From assembly GCA_002780065.1 (NCBI GenBank), contig PEWQ01000138.1:1-10003 (forward strand): a stretch of DNA of 10,003 nt, in the 5' to 3' direction. The stretch comes from Candidatus Hydrogenedentes bacterium CG07_land_8_20_14_0_80_42_17. Its GTDB lineage: Bacteria > UBA8481. The notes beneath the pieces were generated by a model. The model had not been told where the DNA came from. It saw only the letters and a program-made list of their open reading frames with translations, and ran no database searches. The first letter of the stretch is position 1, and every line of letters starts with the position of its first letter. Below are positions 2,731-9,895 of this stretch, one piece after another. The position numbers were made by a program, and so were the translations under genes.

Positions 2731-3632
2731 GAGATCAGATTCTTCGCAAATGCTTCGGCGTCGAATGGAATCAGATCGTCGATCCCTTCTCCGACTCCGA
2801 CATAGAGAACAGGTTTTTTCAGTTCAGCGACTGCTCGCACAATAATGCCGGCTTTTGCCGTTCCATCCAGTTTTGTCACAACTAGTCCTGAAAGCGGTAG
2901 AGACTCGGCAAAGCATTTAACTTGAACAAGGCCATTTTGGCCGACTGCAGCATCCAGCACTAATAATATTTCAACCTCCTCACGCAGTTTTTTTATTACG
3001 CGGACAACTTTTTCGAGCTCCGCCATCAGATTGGTTTTATTGTGCAGTCTTCCGGCAGTGTCGATAATTGCTCGGTCGCAATCCCGATTTATTGCGGCTT
3101 GGACCGTATCAAATGCAACTGCGGCAGGATCTGCGCCTTCTGCTTGAGCTATAACCGGAATATTTAAACGCTCTCCCCAGATTTTTAACTGTTCGACTGC
3201 CGCGGCTCTGAAAGTGTCGGCCGCTCCCAAAATTATTTTTTCTCCGTCAGCTGAAAAGCGCGCCGCAAGTTTGGCGGCAGTTGTTGTTTTGCCTGTTCCA
3301 TTTACTCCGACAATAAGCGTAATTTTTGGAATTTGATTGCTATTTGCAGGAACCTCGGCTGACCGCAAAATCCTCGATATTCGCAATCCGAGCGCTTCGC
3401 GCAGTGTTTCTGCAATCACACCGCCGCCGGCATTTTTCATCCAGACTCGCATATCTTCGACAAGCTCTTCCGCAGTTTGGGGCCCTGTATCCGCCTGAAT
3501 GAGGGCTTCTTCTAATTCTGTCGCCGCGTTTTCATCGAGTATTCCTCTGCCAAGCGCGGCATCGAAGAACTCTCCCAATTCTCTTCGCGAACGCTCAAGT
3601 CCTTTTTTAAGTTTGTCGACTATTCGTATCAT
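2727..3632 (-). CDS. ftsY: Signal recognition particle receptor GTPase FtsY
   Basis: FtsY is the bacterial SRP receptor; with Ffh it delivers ribosomes translating membrane proteins to the SecYEG translocon. This 301-residue protein has the helical N domain (~1-95) and the complete G domain: P-loop GVNGTGKTT (109-117), insertion-box motif DTFRAAAVEQL (139-149), DTAGR (191-195) and TKLDGTAKAG (253-262). The C-terminal GVGEGIDDLIPFD (279-291) is typical of FtsY and differs from Ffh, which would also carry a methionine-rich M domain. The long acidic A domain of E. coli FtsY is missing; short forms beginning near a membrane-binding amphipathic helix are common. The ATG at 3632 overlaps the preceding stop by ATGA. 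Its place between a polyprenyl-phosphate transferase and ribD is unusual. Confidence 0.96.
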   Translation of the reverse strand: MIRIVDKLKKGLERSRRELGEFFDAALGRGILDENAATELEEALIQADTGPQTAEELVEDMRVWMKNAGGGVIAETLREALGLRISRILRSAEVPANSNQIPKITLIVGVNGTGKTTTAAKLAARFSADGEKIILGAADTFRAAAVEQLKIWGERLNIPVIAQAEGADPAAVAFDTVQAAINRDCDRAIIDTAGRLHNKTNLMAELEKVVRVIKKLREEVEILLVLDAAVGQNGLVQVKCFAESLPLSGLVVTKLDGTAKAGIIVRAVAELKKPVLYVGVGEGIDDLIPFDAEAFAKNLIS

Positions 3633-4693
3633 TTATCGATCTCTTTTATTTTTTGAATTTCTATCATTCGCAACACAACCATGATGAGAATTATTGATCC
3701 GATAAGTGTTGCTAAAATCAAAATCGATGTACCTGTATCGGACAGCACCATGGACAATCCAAGAACTGATGCATAAGCGGTTATGACATACAGAAAAAAA
3801 ACTGCAGTGCGGTATGGCATCAATTTTATCAGACGATGGTGAATATGCCCACGGTCAGCCTGAAAGAGATGTTTCTTCAAACGGCTTCTTCTTAGAATCG
3901 CCATCAGAGTATCTGCAACAGGAAGCGCAAGCGCTGTAACGGCGACCAATAGGCTTATCATCGCAGAGGCTTTGGTATAAGAAAAGAGCGACATTGCGGC
4001 GATAAGAAAACCGATCATCAAACTTCCGGTATCTCCAAGAAAAATTTTAGCAGGATGAAAATTGTGAGGAAGAAAGCCGAGCAGAGATCCGCACAACGCA
4101 ACGGCAAGAAACGGCAAAACGTTTTCCCCGCGCCAGATTCCGGCAATAAAGAGCGTAGTTGCCGCAATGGCGCCAATGCCTGAGCAGAGGCCGTCTAAGC
4201 CGTCTATGAGATTCATTGCATTTGTTATCGAGCAGAACCAGAAGATAGTGATAAACCATCCTAAAATCGGACCGAGTTCGATTATGCCTCCGATCGGAGA
4301 CGAAATTGTTTCTATTCTGAATCCGTAGCCCCATAGCACTGTGGCGGCTATTGCCTGAAAAGAAAGTTTGATTCCTGCCGATGAGCCGCCCAGATCGTCG
4401 AAGATTCCAAGAAGTAGAATGATCGAAGAGCCGACAAACAATCCGATGAATTCCTGCAAAAATTCGAATCTGAATCCTTTGTCAAGATGCAATGCCACTC
4501 CGATCGCCATCATGAAACCGAAAAAGACCGAGACGCCGCCGAGATAAGGAACGGCATAAGTGTGAATTTTTCTTTCATCTGGAATATCGAGCAGTTTAAG
4601 TTTTACTGAGACGCGTCTTATAACATGAGTCAAGAGGAACGAAATAGTTGCGGCAATGAGAAAGACGAGAAGATACGGTCGTTTATCCATCAC
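3629..4693 (-). CDS. WecA/TagO-type polyprenyl-phosphate GlcNAc-1-phosphate transferase
   Basis: This integral membrane enzyme (354 residues, about ten or eleven hydrophobic segments) belongs to the MraY/WecA glycosyltransferase family 4. It moves a sugar-1-phosphate from a UDP-sugar to undecaprenyl phosphate at the cytoplasmic face, the first step of O-antigen, enterobacterial common antigen or teichoic acid-like glycans. Seen in order: DIPDERKIHTYAVPYLGG (36-53), the Asp pair FDD (98-100), NAMNLIDGLDGL (158-169), the magnesium-site FLGDTGS (218-224) and DRGHIHHRL (270-278). The HIHH motif favours the WecA/TagO/WbpL branch over MraY; the sugar (GlcNAc or other) cannot be told. The start is GTG at 4693, sharing GTGA with the upstream stop; an ATG one codon later (TGATG overlap) is equally possible. 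It probably works with envelope glycan genes elsewhere. Confidence 0.9.
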   Translation of the reverse strand: MMDKRPYLLVFLIAATISFLLTHVIRRVSVKLKLLDIPDERKIHTYAVPYLGGVSVFFGFMMAIGVALHLDKGFRFEFLQEFIGLFVGSSIILLLGIFDDLGGSSAGIKLSFQAIAATVLWGYGFRIETISSPIGGIIELGPILGWFITIFWFCSITNAMNLIDGLDGLCSGIGAIAATTLFIAGIWRGENVLPFLAVALCGSLLGFLPHNFHPAKIFLGDTGSLMIGFLIAAMSLFSYTKASAMISLLVAVTALALPVADTLMAILRRSRLKKHLFQADRGHIHHRLIKLMPYRTAVFFLYVITAYASVLGLSMVLSDTGTSILILATLIGSIILIMVVLRMIEIQKIKEIDK

Positions 4694-6378
4694 AATTCCG
4701 AAAGAATTTTTTTCGGCTTATAAAGTTTATTTTCGATTATTAGGAGATCGACTGCGCCTGATTCGAACGAACGAATTGCATCTTCCGCAGTTCTTACAAT
4801 CGGCTCTTCATGCATGTTGAAAGATGTATTGATGAGTATCTCCTTTCCTGTGATTCGGCCGTATTCTACAAGCAATTCTTTCAAAAAACCAGAATCGTCT
4901 CTAACAACCTGAGGTCTTGCCGTACCGTCGACGTGAACTATTGCCGGTGCGTCTTCTCTGCATGAATCTGTGACATCATAAGTTATTGTCATGAATCTCG
5001 ACGGCTCATCGCTGCTGCTCCATCCCTTAAGATATTTTTTTGCGGCGGATTCAGTCATAATCGGAGCGAACGGCATAAATTCCGTTCGCTTCAGCCGTTT
5101 ATTCAAAGTGTCGTTTATCGAAGCGTCATCTGCTTCTGCGAAGATAGTTCTATTTCCAAGTGCGCGCGGACCGTATTCCATTCGTTCTGCGGCGCGCCCG
5201 ACAATAAATCCTTTCGAGAGCGCCTGTGCGGCCGCTGCCGCGACAGACTTATCTTTTATTTCGATGAGTCCTGCTCTTTCTAAACTGGAGACTGAAGCTT
5301 CACCTGCTGTTTCACCGAGATAAACATCTTTGAGTTCGATCTGTTTTTTCGCAATATGAAGCGCGGCTCCGACGCATAATCCGCCGTCACCCATATTCGG
5401 ATGAATCCAAAGTTTACCCGGAACAATCTCGAGTATTTTTTGATTGACTCTAACATTGGCAAAAACTCCGCCTGCTAATGCTGCGTTCTTTTCGCCTGTA
5501 TCTTCGAGCGCATCTCTGACTATGGCGGAGGCAATCTCTTCAGTGTGGCGCTGTAATGCCGCGGCAATGTCTTCTCGTGAATGAGTATCCATCATTTCGT
5601 CGATCCATTCGGTCTTCCACTCTGCATCGACTCTCTGCATGAAGAGCCGCGGAATGACTTCGGAAACAAGCCTGCGATTTTCATATCTCAGCAAGTCCCT
5701 GAATTTGTTGATTAGAATATTCGAATCGCCCATTGCAGCAAGCCCGGTTATCTTGCCTTCGTGCCGAGCCGGTCTGAATCCGAACGCCTTTGTCACACTG
5801 GAATACAAAAGTCCGAGTGACGCGTATCCGTTAAAACTTCGTATGCATTTTAATGAATTGCCTTTTCCAATGTATACTCCGCCGCAGATAGCGGAATCCC
5901 CGATGCCATCGAGTGTGACTACGCAGGCAGAAGGAAATTGAGAGGTGAAGAATGCCGAAGCGGCATGAGCATCATGGTGGCCCACAAAAGAGATTGGAGC
6001 GGAAATATCGAGAGGACCGAAACGCCGAATTTTTTTTGCTGTAAGCAAAGAGTATAACCAGCGGTTGGGAAGAACGATTCCTGTTTGACGAAACAGAGTC
6101 ACCAATTCACGTATCATTAGTGCTGAGCGCGATAGAGGTGAAAGACCCGCCATTGCTATTCTGCGAATATCGAGCGGCGTAATTCCAGAGGCGGAGATGA
6201 CGTAACGAATCGATTCAGCGGGCCAACATCCTTCATTTTTTTTTCGGGTGATTCGCTCCTCGTTGACTGCCGCAGTTATTTTTCCGCCTATTATAATTGC
6301 GGCTCCGGAATCGTGATGCATCACTTGAGGACTATCCGAAGAGTAACCCCATATTCCTAATATTAGTTCGTCATTCAT
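4690..6378 (-). CDS. NodU/CmcH/TobZ-family carbamoyltransferase
   Basis: Members transfer a carbamoyl group from carbamoyl phosphate, via carbamoyl-AMP, to a hydroxyl of a sugar, Nod factor or antibiotic. The 562 residues match the usual length and two-domain build. The N-terminal Kae1-like domain shows HHDSGAAI (21-28), the metal-site HHDAHAASAFF (134-144), TLDGIGD (155-161), GGVFANVRVNQ (303-313) and HPNMGDGGLCVGAA (326-339). The C-terminal domain shows GPRALGNR (403-410), FMPFAP (434-439) and NTSFNMHEEPIV (517-528). The ATG at 6378 is fixed by an in-frame TAA four codons upstream (6388-6390); no Shine-Dalgarno is visible, and a repeat begins 16 bases before the start. It is the first gene of the leftward operon. 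Pairing with a WecA-type transferase suggests an envelope sugar as acceptor, but a small-molecule product cannot be excluded. Confidence 0.92.
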   Translation of the reverse strand: MNDELILGIWGYSSDSPQVMHHDSGAAIIIGGKITAAVNEERITRKKNEGCWPAESIRYVISASGITPLDIRRIAMAGLSPLSRSALMIRELVTLFRQTGIVLPNRWLYSLLTAKKIRRFGPLDISAPISFVGHHDAHAASAFFTSQFPSACVVTLDGIGDSAICGGVYIGKGNSLKCIRSFNGYASLGLLYSSVTKAFGFRPARHEGKITGLAAMGDSNILINKFRDLLRYENRRLVSEVIPRLFMQRVDAEWKTEWIDEMMDTHSREDIAAALQRHTEEIASAIVRDALEDTGEKNAALAGGVFANVRVNQKILEIVPGKLWIHPNMGDGGLCVGAALHIAKKQIELKDVYLGETAGEASVSSLERAGLIEIKDKSVAAAAAQALSKGFIVGRAAERMEYGPRALGNRTIFAEADDASINDTLNKRLKRTEFMPFAPIMTESAAKKYLKGWSSSDEPSRFMTITYDVTDSCREDAPAIVHVDGTARPQVVRDDSGFLKELLVEYGRITGKEILINTSFNMHEEPIVRTAEDAIRSFESGAVDLLIIENKLYKPKKILSEL

Positions 6379-6394
6379 AATTTGATTTTACATT

Positions 6395-6429
6395 ATTTTT
6401 TGGGGTCAGGCTTGAACTTTTTTACTTTT
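6395..6429 (+). repeat. Interspersed repeat, full copy A (core GGGGTCAGGCTTGAAC)
   Basis: This 35-base unit consists of A-T6, the 16-base core GGGGTCAGGCTTGAAC, then T6-AC-TTTT. The same 35 bases recur at 6447-6481, and the core recurs inverted at 6575-6590. It begins only 16 bases upstream of the carbamoyltransferase ATG, so it lies within that gene's expected promoter/leader. It resembles dispersed REP-like repeats of uncultivated bacteria as I recall them; this is not checked by search. Confidence 0.9.
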
Positions 6430-6445
6430 CATTTTTTGGGGTCAT
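6430..6445 (+). repeat. Truncated repeat copy B
   Basis: The 16 bases CATTTTTTGGGGTCAT repeat the left end of the element and break off inside the core after GGGGTCA. The next 16 bases (6446-6461) are the same except for the last base, so copies B and C form a short head-to-tail tandem. Strand slippage or aborted insertion would explain this. Confidence 0.8.
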
Positions 6446-6446
6446 C

Positions 6447-6482
6447 ATTTTTTGGGGTCAGGCTTGAACTTTTTTACTTTTT
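6447..6482 (+). repeat. Interspersed repeat, full copy C
   Basis: Identical to copy A over 35 bases with one further T, in the same orientation, 52 bases away start to start. Together with the inverted copy at 6560-6590 it can form a long stem (about 30 pairs, one mismatch) closed by a ~78-base loop, the layout called a REPIN when made by REP sequences. Its TTGAAC resembles a -35 hexamer, but a -10 at proper spacing is lacking. Confidence 0.9.
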
Positions 6483-6526
6483 AAATTTTTCGTCTAATTA
6501 TGATGCAGTTAATGGTAATGTAGCTT

Positions 6527-7966
6527 ATGTGTTTTTCTAAATTTATTTTTAATTGCTATAAAAAAGTAAATAAGTTCAAGCCTGACCCCATTCTGGTCAT
6601 TCTGGCCATTCTGGCAGGAATAATTACTGCTCTGGCATTTCCTCCATATAATTTTATTCCAGGAGTTTTTATCGGACCATTAATTTTTTATGTAATGAAT
6701 CGAAAAAAGCTGTCGTTCTATTCAGGTTTCTTGTTTGGAATAGGATTTCTTGCTCCGATAGAAAATTGGCTTTTTGAGTTCAACTTCTTTGCACCTTTCG
6801 CAGTTATTTTTATATTTGCGATTCCTTACGGCGTTGCGGCTCGATTCTCGCGTACTCCCGTTCTTTTTGCTTCAGCGATGACTGCGGCTGAATTCTTCAG
6901 ATGCATTGGCAGTTTTGCGTTTCCATGGGGGCAGTTAGGATCAGTACTTGCTTTTAAATCGTTTGCAAATCTCTTTTATCTTTTCGGTGTTTTTGGAGTT
7001 ACATTTATAGTTTTGCTGACAGCTTCGCTTTCTGTAGAAAAATTTCGATTAGCTTTAATTTTTGCCGGAACAGTTTTTTTGATAATACTTTATCCGCAAT
7101 CTGAATTACATGGGCAGAAGATAAAAGTAGCTGTTGTCCAAGGAAATTTTGCGCCTGAATCCGATTACGAGTTTGAACCTCAAAAGGTTTTGTCGAGGCT
7201 TTTTTTGGGAACTCGTGAAGCCGCACAAAAGGGCGCAAAGCTTGTTGTATGGACAGAAACAGTTATTCTTGAATACTTGAATCTTCCTTCGAGTGTCAGA
7301 AGATCAATTGAAAGATTGGCAATTGAAAATAATATTACGATAATTACAGGAGCTCCCTCATTAATTGAAGGAGACAAACGCAATTCTATTTATGTTTTTT
7401 TTCCGGATTCAAATGCTATTAAAATTTTTAGATATGATAAGGTTCATCTCGTTCCTTTTGGCGAATACATTCCTGGTTTTGGTCCGGATAAAAATCATCT
7501 TCTTCTGTCTGAAGGAGTCGGCGATTTTACACCTGCAATTCTATCTCTGCCGAAATTATCTATGGCATTTATGATCTGTTTCGAGGGAGCATTTTCTGAG
7601 GTTGCAAGCGTTCAAGTAAATAACAGAGCGAAATTACTCGTAAATCTTTCGAACGATGCTTGGTCAAAAAGTTCTTCAGAAGCAGTTCAGCATGCGGCTT
7701 TGACAGGAGTAAGAGCTTTTGAATTTCGAAGTGCTTTGATTCGTGCGGGGAATACAGGACCAAGTTTTATTTTAGATGCTGACGGAACCGAAAAAGCGCG
7801 GCTAGATCTTTGCAGAGAAGGAGTAATTACAGGCGAAGTCACTTTATCCGAAAAATCCTCCCGCTTTGTTTCTGTTAATTTTTTCGGATGGCTTAATTTT
7901 TTAGGATTGCCATTTTTCTTGACAGCAAGCTCACTTCTTGGTGAACTAAAGGAAAGAAATGAGTAG
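6527..7966 (+). CDS. lnt: Apolipoprotein N-acyltransferase Lnt, with repeat-derived N-terminus
   Basis: Lnt adds the third acyl chain to the N-terminal cysteine of lipoproteins in the inner membrane. The 479 residues comprise a hydrophobic N-terminal half (segments from ~22, ILVILAILAGIITALAFPP), a periplasmic nitrilase-like domain (~198-440) and a final membrane helix (~448-470). The catalytic triad is present: Glu244 in VVWTE, Lys305 in YDKVHLVPFGEYIP and Cys351 in MICFE; NLSNDAW (373-379) is also typical. The only possible start is ATG 6527, because an in-frame TAG lies two codons upstream (6521-6523) and no ATG/GTG/TTG occurs between codon 1 and TM1. Codons ~12-21 are inverted repeat copy D, and all of codons 1-21 lie between repeat copies, so the N-terminus looks acquired or rebuilt. 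No clear Shine-Dalgarno is seen. The gene is visibly AT-richer than the leftward operon and overlaps the next gene by 8 bases. Confidence 0.94.
   Translation: MCFSKFIFNCYKKVNKFKPDPILVILAILAGIITALAFPPYNFIPGVFIGPLIFYVMNRKKLSFYSGFLFGIGFLAPIENWLFEFNFFAPFAVIFIFAIPYGVAARFSRTPVLFASAMTAAEFFRCIGSFAFPWGQLGSVLAFKSFANLFYLFGVFGVTFIVLLTASLSVEKFRLALIFAGTVFLIILYPQSELHGQKIKVAVVQGNFAPESDYEFEPQKVLSRLFLGTREAAQKGAKLVVWTETVILEYLNLPSSVRRSIERLAIENNITIITGAPSLIEGDKRNSIYVFFPDSNAIKIFRYDKVHLVPFGEYIPGFGPDKNHLLLSEGVGDFTPAILSLPKLSMAFMICFEGAFSEVASVQVNNRAKLLVNLSNDAWSKSSSEAVQHAALTGVRAFEFRSALIRAGNTGPSFILDADGTEKARLDLCREGVITGEVTLSEKSSRFVSVNFFGWLNFLGLPFFLTASSLLGELKERNE
6560..6590 (-). repeat. Inverted repeat copy D inside the lnt coding sequence
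   Basis: Read on the minus strand this is TGGGGTCAGGCTTGAAC followed by TT-A-TTTACTTTTTT, matching copies A and C except for one base (T instead of A at plus position 6571) and loss of the T6 tract at its left end. On the plus strand it lies in frame with lnt and encodes KKVNKFKPDP. The single difference changes what would be a Lys codon to Asn (AAA to AAT). Confidence 0.9.
6590..6616 (+). repeat. Three tandem 9-base units at the repeat/lnt junction
   Basis: ATTCTGGTC, ATTCTGGCC and ATTCTGGCA follow one another directly after copy D, in frame, encoding ILV-ILA-ILA at residues 22-30. They make up the start of the first membrane helix of Lnt. Units differ only in their last two bases. This could be duplication at the repeat boundary or simple low-complexity hydrophobic coding. 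Confidence 0.75.
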
Positions 7967-9119: not shown

Positions 9120-9895
9120 GAAGAATCCTTCGTCTCGCGGCACTGCTTGCTCCTCTTTTAGGAGTAAAGATCACACCGAAACTGTATGGAGCTTTAGCAA
9201 AACTTTTTTGGTTTTATGCTCCGGCAAAAAATATTTTGAAAGCGAATTTTAAACGAGCCGGAATATCTGCTTCTCCTGAATTGATTTCAGAGACCGTTCG
9301 AAATTTTGGCAGATATCTCAGTGAATTTTTTTCTGTTTTAGGAAAATCTGAAAGCCTTTCATTTTTGAGAGGTGAAGTTGACATTGACTCGCTGAAGAAA
9401 ACCCATGAATCAGGTAGAGGAGCTTTTGCGCTCTCTCCTCATTTTGGCAACTGGGAAGTTGGTGCATTGATATTAGGCGAAGAGTTCGGTGGGATTTCCG
9501 TAATAATCAGAACGACCGGAGATAAATGGCTGGACGAACGAATAAAGATTTGCCGAGGTAGAAACCGTTTATTCGACGTTTCAAAGGGAGTGAGACCTAT
9601 TTTGCGCGCACTTGAAGAAAAGGCGATTGTGGCCGCCGCAGTTGATGAACCGCGCAGTAAAGGTGTCGAAGTTAAATTTATGGGCGCTAATATTTTTTTC
9701 CCTTCTGCAATCTTTAGAATGGCTGAGGAAACAGATTCGGCATTAATACCTGTAAGATGCAAAAGAAGTCATGAAGGAAAGATAACAGTAAAATCTTATG
9801 AGGAAGTGAGAACGCCTCAGGAGCTGGCGGATATTTTTGAAGAATGGATTAGAGAAGAGCCTACTCAATGGATGCTGATGGAGCGTTTAGAATGA
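9116..9895 (+). CDS. Lipid A biosynthesis lauroyl/myristoyl acyltransferase-like protein (LpxL/HtrB family)
   Basis: LpxL/HtrB enzymes add secondary acyl chains to Kdo2-lipid IVA at the inner membrane; relatives acylate other glycolipids. The catalytic HX4E motif is HFGNWE (109-114), inside ALSPHFGNWEVGALIL. Further family marks are VDEPRSKGVEVKFMG (176-190), FFPSAIFRMAEETDSALIPV (194-213) and the C-terminal EEWIREEPTQWML (242-254). At 259 residues it is shorter than E. coli LpxL (~306), mainly at the N-terminus, where only a short hydrophobic stretch (4-16) and YGALAKLFWFYAP are left before the N-x-K-R-A-like segment. The start is a TTG at 9116 that shares TTGA with the preceding stop; no other plausible start precedes the conserved region, and no strong Shine-Dalgarno is seen, so coupling is likely. 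Family is sure; the acceptor (lipid A or the neighbouring enzyme's glycolipid) is open. Confidence 0.88.
   Translation: MRRILRLAALLAPLLGVKITPKLYGALAKLFWFYAPAKNILKANFKRAGISASPELISETVRNFGRYLSEFFSVLGKSESLSFLRGEVDIDSLKKTHESGRGAFALSPHFGNWEVGALILGEEFGGISVIIRTTGDKWLDERIKICRGRNRLFDVSKGVRPILRALEEKAIVAAAVDEPRSKGVEVKFMGANIFFPSAIFRMAEETDSALIPVRCKRSHEGKITVKSYEEVRTPQELADIFEEWIREEPTQWMLMERLE

Follow-up and report, generated by a model that had tools for sequence, protein, structure and literature searches.

A TIRtron-like repeat family at the 5' end of lnt in a Candidatus Hydrogenedentes genome and its candidate in-frame insertion into the coding region

The window analysed here is a stretch of 10,003 nt that constitutes a complete contig (C134) of the genome of Candidatus Hydrogenedentes bacterium CG07_land_8_20_14_0_80_42_17, which comprises 2.39 Mb in 207 contigs. 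It contains lnt, whose predicted product scored 216.8 bits against the family model TIGR00546 (cut-off 132.9), has the LNT_N and CN_hydrolase domains and, when aligned with E. coli Lnt, retains the catalytic Glu-Lys-Cys motifs (WTET, YDKVHLVPFGEY and ICFE). No second lnt was found in the genome. A scan of the frame agreed with a previous reading of this DNA from its sequence only (the sequence-only reading) that ATG 6527 is the sole usable start: it is the only in-frame ATG, GTG or TTG before position 6695, and an in-frame TAG at 6521-6523 blocks any longer form. The start of the divergent carbamoyltransferase-like gene lies 23 nt from the nearest copy of a short repeat (copy A), so that the repeats occupy most of the intergenic region shared by the two genes.

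The 16-nt core of this repeat, GGGGTCAGGCTTGAAC, is present in the window at 6402(+), 6454(+) and 6574(-), in the units called copies A, C and D (Table 1). As had been claimed, A and C lie upstream of lnt and D lies inverted and in frame within it, where it is read as KKVNKFKPDP; the inverted arms of C and D extend over 30 nt and are 97% complementary. The accompanying claim that about the first 21 codons lie inside the repeat has to be narrowed. Codons 1-11 do lie between two copies, but only codons 12-21 are repeat (copy D). The 78-nt stretch with ATG 6527 occurs once in the genome; ATG 6527 and codons 1-11 are therefore not made of repeat. The sub-variant base of D, T19->A, is shared with C196 and with one copy on C19 and is absent from A and C; D and C are thus not necessarily partners. 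In its orientation, D occupies the only one of the three frames that is open. Reading an intrinsic terminator here was rejected, as none was found in the scan.

Table 1. Features at the lnt locus and at three genes elsewhere in the genome that are joined in frame to related elements
Feature	Location	Strand	Basis or remark
Divergent carbamoyltransferase-like gene	4690..6378	-	Named from sequence, no family search
TIR copy A, 28/29 unit bases	6402..6430	+	Copy alignment
Tandem duplication, TCATTTTTTGGGGTCA x2	6429..6460	+	Includes partial repeat B (GGGGTCA, 6438-6444); runs into copy C
TIR copy C, 29/29 unit bases	6454..6482	+	Copy alignment
Single-copy stretch between C and D, 78 nt	6483..6560	+	Contains TAG 6521-6523, ATG 6527 and codons 2-11
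lnt, apolipoprotein N-acyltransferase, 479 aa	6527..7966	+	Family models; catalytic E/K/C motifs
TIR copy D, T19->A sub-variant	6561..6589	-	lnt residues 12-21, (K)KVNKFKPDP
9-nt tandem repeat, ATTCTGGTC/ATTCTGGCC/ATTCTGGCA, adjoining D	6590..6616	+	Encodes ILV-ILA-ILA, start of first membrane helix
B12-binding radical SAM gene	L080 (C138) 4834-6401	+	MFTKKEKSSSLTP, 13 residues including the start, element-encoded
Agmatinase-like gene	L075 (C87) 2885-3996	-	Same MFTKKEKSSSLTP start, likewise element-encoded
Nitrilase-like gene, named from sequence	L080 (C138) 9237-9525	+	In-frame upstream extension MFTKKEKSSSLTPNTKYKY; same element subfamily

Alignment of all copies showed that the repeat unit is exactly 29 nt long (GGGGTCAGGCTTGAACTTTTTTACTTTTT), with few variable positions and with conservation ending beyond it. 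A search of the 2.39-Mb source genome gave 29 copies of the core, 26 exact and three with one mismatch, versus a single match for the reversed control pattern, which rules out a chance inverted repeat. The core was not found in 60 other genomes, which were those of relatives. The contig collection yielded 89 single matches, where about 120 are expected by chance according to our own calculation (a 16-mer, 257 Gb, two strands), and no relatives of the Y1 transposase described below were found near these 89 matches. There is no sign of the repeat family outside the source genome.

The family had been called REPIN-like, a label that does not hold in the strict sense. The unit is not palindromic, it begins with GGGG (AGGG in three copies) and not with a GTAG-type tetranucleotide, and alone one of its strands forms just a 3-bp stem (-1.2 kcal/mol) and the other no structure; a unit that does not fold by itself falls outside the strict definition of a REP. 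The regular spacing of REPINs is present: eight inverted pairs occur in the genome, with lengths of 95-136 bp, and five fall at 126-128 bp. The unit suits a TIR/TIRYT family. The unit starts with GGGGTCAG in 26 of the 29 copies and with AGGGTCAG in the other three, and GGGGTCAG agrees with GGGGWSAS, the TIR consensus of TIRYT (TIR-associated tyrosine transposase) (PMC3733652). On contig C131, as in a TIRtron, a Y1 HUH transposase (L079, 4524-5360(-)) is flanked by inverted units of the dispersed family, at 4504(+) and 5403-5418(-), and its stop codon falls inside one repeat copy. This protein matched PF01797 with 55.5 bits, and its best NCBIfam match was the REP-associated tyrosine transposase model (REP_Tyr_transpos, 68.6 bits, below the cut-off of 80). 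We read the family as a TIRtron together with MITE derivatives and single TIRs, putatively mobilised by the transposase. Three further Y1 transposase matches were obtained at L040 (C2), L041 (C12) and L042 (C205), contigs on which no copy of the repeat was found. At two other genes, an EtfA-like gene (L072, 5021-6061(-)) and a HEAT-repeat protein gene (L079, 3657-4517(+)), a single repeat unit gives the stop codon and a C-terminal GQA.

By our reading of the loci, all eight inverted pairs lie inside a gene start or within about 45 nt of one. The elements are typically 119-128 bp long, and the C-D pair at lnt measures 136 bp. Six of the pairs have homologous interiors (z 7-25 among themselves), while the pair on C196 is short and its interior is weakly similar at most. 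The interior of the C-D pair is unrelated to those of the other pairs (z -0.2 to -1.2). Whole-length matches of 72% between the lnt stretch and two other elements were discarded, since they are due to the end repeats and the interior is without homology.

Nine of the 29 units are adjoined at their outer end by a tandem duplication of 7-16 nt that consists of flank and first unit bases, compared with 0.75-1.1% of random positions in the same loci (binomial P ~1.5e-11, a value computed over copies some of which are not independent). The duplications are located in the window, at 6429-6460 and 6590-6616, and at L072, L073, L075, L079 and L080. Several of the duplicated segments hold repeat-derived bases (GGGGTCA), and those duplications thus post-date insertion. 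They may have arisen through replication slippage at the edge of the repeat.

The proposal that a repeat provides a gene with its start fits two other genes better than lnt. In the radical SAM and agmatinase-like genes, MFTKKEKSSSLTP is read from an ATG in the element interior and on through the end repeat, in which, owing to the change A23->C, this frame has GAA in place of TAA. A conserved motif follows directly after MFTKKEKSSSLTP in both: KILLINPPY in the radical SAM protein, where Met adjoins the motif in several homologs, and NTHFDPDAP in the agmatinase-like protein, of which one homolog has MATHFDP. When the flanks were rejoined, with boundaries free to shift by one base, the radical SAM site gave TTTATG|AAAATACTATT, that is M-KILLINPP, and the agmatinase-like site gave ATA at the corresponding position. 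It appears from these sequences that elements landed on the start codons of the two genes and supplied replacements. In the nitrilase-like gene, whose contig ends inside the gene, an element of the same subfamily extends the frame upstream and the gene retains its own ATG; in all, each of the three copies of this subfamily shares the reading frame of the gene that follows it (3/3). The three elements of this subfamily (one at L075 and two at L080) all have TTTAT on their left and an AAATAC-like sequence on their right, which may reflect a target preference of the transposase. A tentative generalisation, less likely than not, would make one MITE subfamily a mobile start-codon cassette, which would land at or next to starts and replace the native start by its own ATG and MFTKKEKSSSLTP codons, opened by the TAA->GAA change in its end repeat. 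Under this view lnt might belong with these genes, and tandem duplications formed at repeat ends after insertion would alter the junctions.

The sole other genome within the same order and class (G001) belongs to another family, and its Lnt is 41% identical to that of the window. G001 has no copy of the core. Comparison of the two genes showed that the DNA upstream of the G001 lnt is unlike that of the window, and that the nearest plausible start of the G001 Lnt aligns inside the positions equivalent to D. At this identity, and with different upstream DNA, the relative is too distant to settle between insertion and the supply of a start. A search for close Lnt relatives in the wider contig collection gave none.

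For lnt itself we favour, with moderate confidence, the view that D is a 29-nt TIR inserted in frame, as about 30 nt, into an existing N-terminus, downstream of a start that was already there. If 30 nt of D are deleted, the frame is preserved and the product begins MCFSKFIFNCY(I)LVILAILAGIITALAFPP, with 26 residues before the AFPP motif and not the 36 found with D. E. coli Lnt has 26 residues before AFPP, counted from its known sequence; in the homologs, the nearest plausible start to AFPP is mostly 12-28 residues away and in one it is 34-38. The rule used for the end of D (the unit plus one A) also yields an ATG when applied to the radical SAM site, to which it was chosen to fit, and the length of the insertion is uncertain by about one base. 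It is the single-copy loop, the frame-neutral removal of D and its sub-variant difference that make us prefer insertion over the supply of a start. The 29-nt TIR would have entered between the first membrane helix and a start region then consisting of ATG 6527 and about 11 codons, and would have lengthened the cytoplasmic tail by the lysine-rich ten residues KKVNKFKPDP. Later, a duplication of the slippage type beside D probably multiplied the 9-nt units that code for the start of the helix, and two more copies, A and C, would have entered the divergent promoter region. The predicted Lnt is probably still active, since additional positive charges would be tolerated in its tail. The order of these insertions, the greater age of ATG 6527 relative to D and the start of translation at 6527 are what we infer from the present arrangement. 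A mobile repeat at the N-terminus of Lnt, as the sequence-only reading proposed, is thus retained as an in-frame insertion that lengthens the cytoplasmic tail, but only about ten of the 21 codons are repeat. Its domestication as the N-terminus of the enzyme is not borne out, the copies being near-identical and hence young.

The original proposal for lnt, put in its full form, is that C, the loop and D are one mobile element that destroyed the native start and supplied a new ATG together with all 21 N-terminal codons. We consider this rather unlikely. In its favour, C and D are inverted relative to each other, and their pair, which at 136 bp approaches the typical elements and is about the size of a REPIN, could be a single atypical element; start replacement seems to have occurred at the two other genes of this genome, and the nearest plausible G001 start aligns inside D. 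Yet the C-D interior is single-copy and unrelated to the usual element interior, the two ends are different sub-variants, removal of A..D restores no start codon beside the helix in the lnt frame, and removal of C..D leaves nothing but TTG codons, which lie within the repeats or adjoin them. The claim that the repeat supplied the start of lnt was therefore not upheld: the ATG lies in single-copy DNA unlike element interiors, and an N-terminus of normal length is left when the 30 nt of D are taken out.

Another reading, improbable in our judgement, is that the insertions damaged lnt, so that little or no translation begins at 6527 and lnt either became a pseudogene very recently or relies on a non-standard start (ATT or CTG) directly after D. 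It would agree with the lack of a Shine-Dalgarno motif before ATG 6527 (in the sampled loci a Shine-Dalgarno 4-mer precedes 38% of first-ATG starts versus 15% of internal ATGs), with the finding of no sigma-70-like promoter in a scan of 6280-6700, and with the C:D stem, which in any transcript begun upstream of C would enclose the start (computed -59.4 kcal/mol, z -7.9). Since the repeats are young, decay might not yet be visible. Against damage stand 479 codons with no stop, the preserved catalytic motifs in the only lnt found in the genome, and the position of D in the one open frame. That short repeats caused a mis-join in a fragmented assembly is very improbable: some of the 207 contigs do end at or near repeat copies, e.g. 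C36 and C130, but the copies here do not exceed 29 nt, less than the length of a usual read, and their flanks are unique, the frame is preserved across D, and the other copies are regular in architecture.

In-frame decoration of proteins by repeats, N-termini included, is already known, and lnt is a further case. What the present genome adds is a TIR/TIRYT family from a poorly sampled lineage, with lnt decorated and two more genes whose native starts were seemingly overwritten and replaced. Should expression data confirm them, these cases would allow one to test cleanly in what way the landing of a mobile element on a start codon can be survived. The tandem duplications, for their part, suggest that repeat ends provoke replication slippage. 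Among known systems, Rickettsia palindromic elements are selfish repeats found in frame within conserved genes (reviewed in PMC10969869 and PMC2229807), with N-terminal cases expressed in vivo according to work cited in PMC3733652; they differ in sequence, are larger (~150 bp), and the reviews describe no link to a Y1 transposase. MITEAba12 of Acinetobacter is reported to be capable of providing neighbouring genes with a start and their first residues, MQQS (PMC6382973), but it derives from ISAba12, contributes four residues versus 13 here, and is not about lnt. REPIN/RAYT doublets resemble the present pairs in being short inverted doublets about 110 bp apart, accompanied by singlets and linked to a Y1 transposase (PMC3116915), whereas the unit here is not a palindrome and its copy number is low. 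REPs are reported to lie mostly downstream of coding regions, and the N-terminal protein decoration described for them concerns GTAG and CGTC REPs (PMC3733652); in contrast, all eight inverted pairs found here are at or inside gene 5' ends. The closest likeness in architecture is to TIRtrons/TIRYT, in which a Y1 HUH transposase lies between inverted repeats starting with GGGGWSAS, further repeats are scattered singly, as dimers or in groups, and the TIR may overlap the 3' end of the transposase gene (PMC3733652). The present family differs from them in that its unit reads into host proteins and its inverted pairs lie at gene 5' ends.
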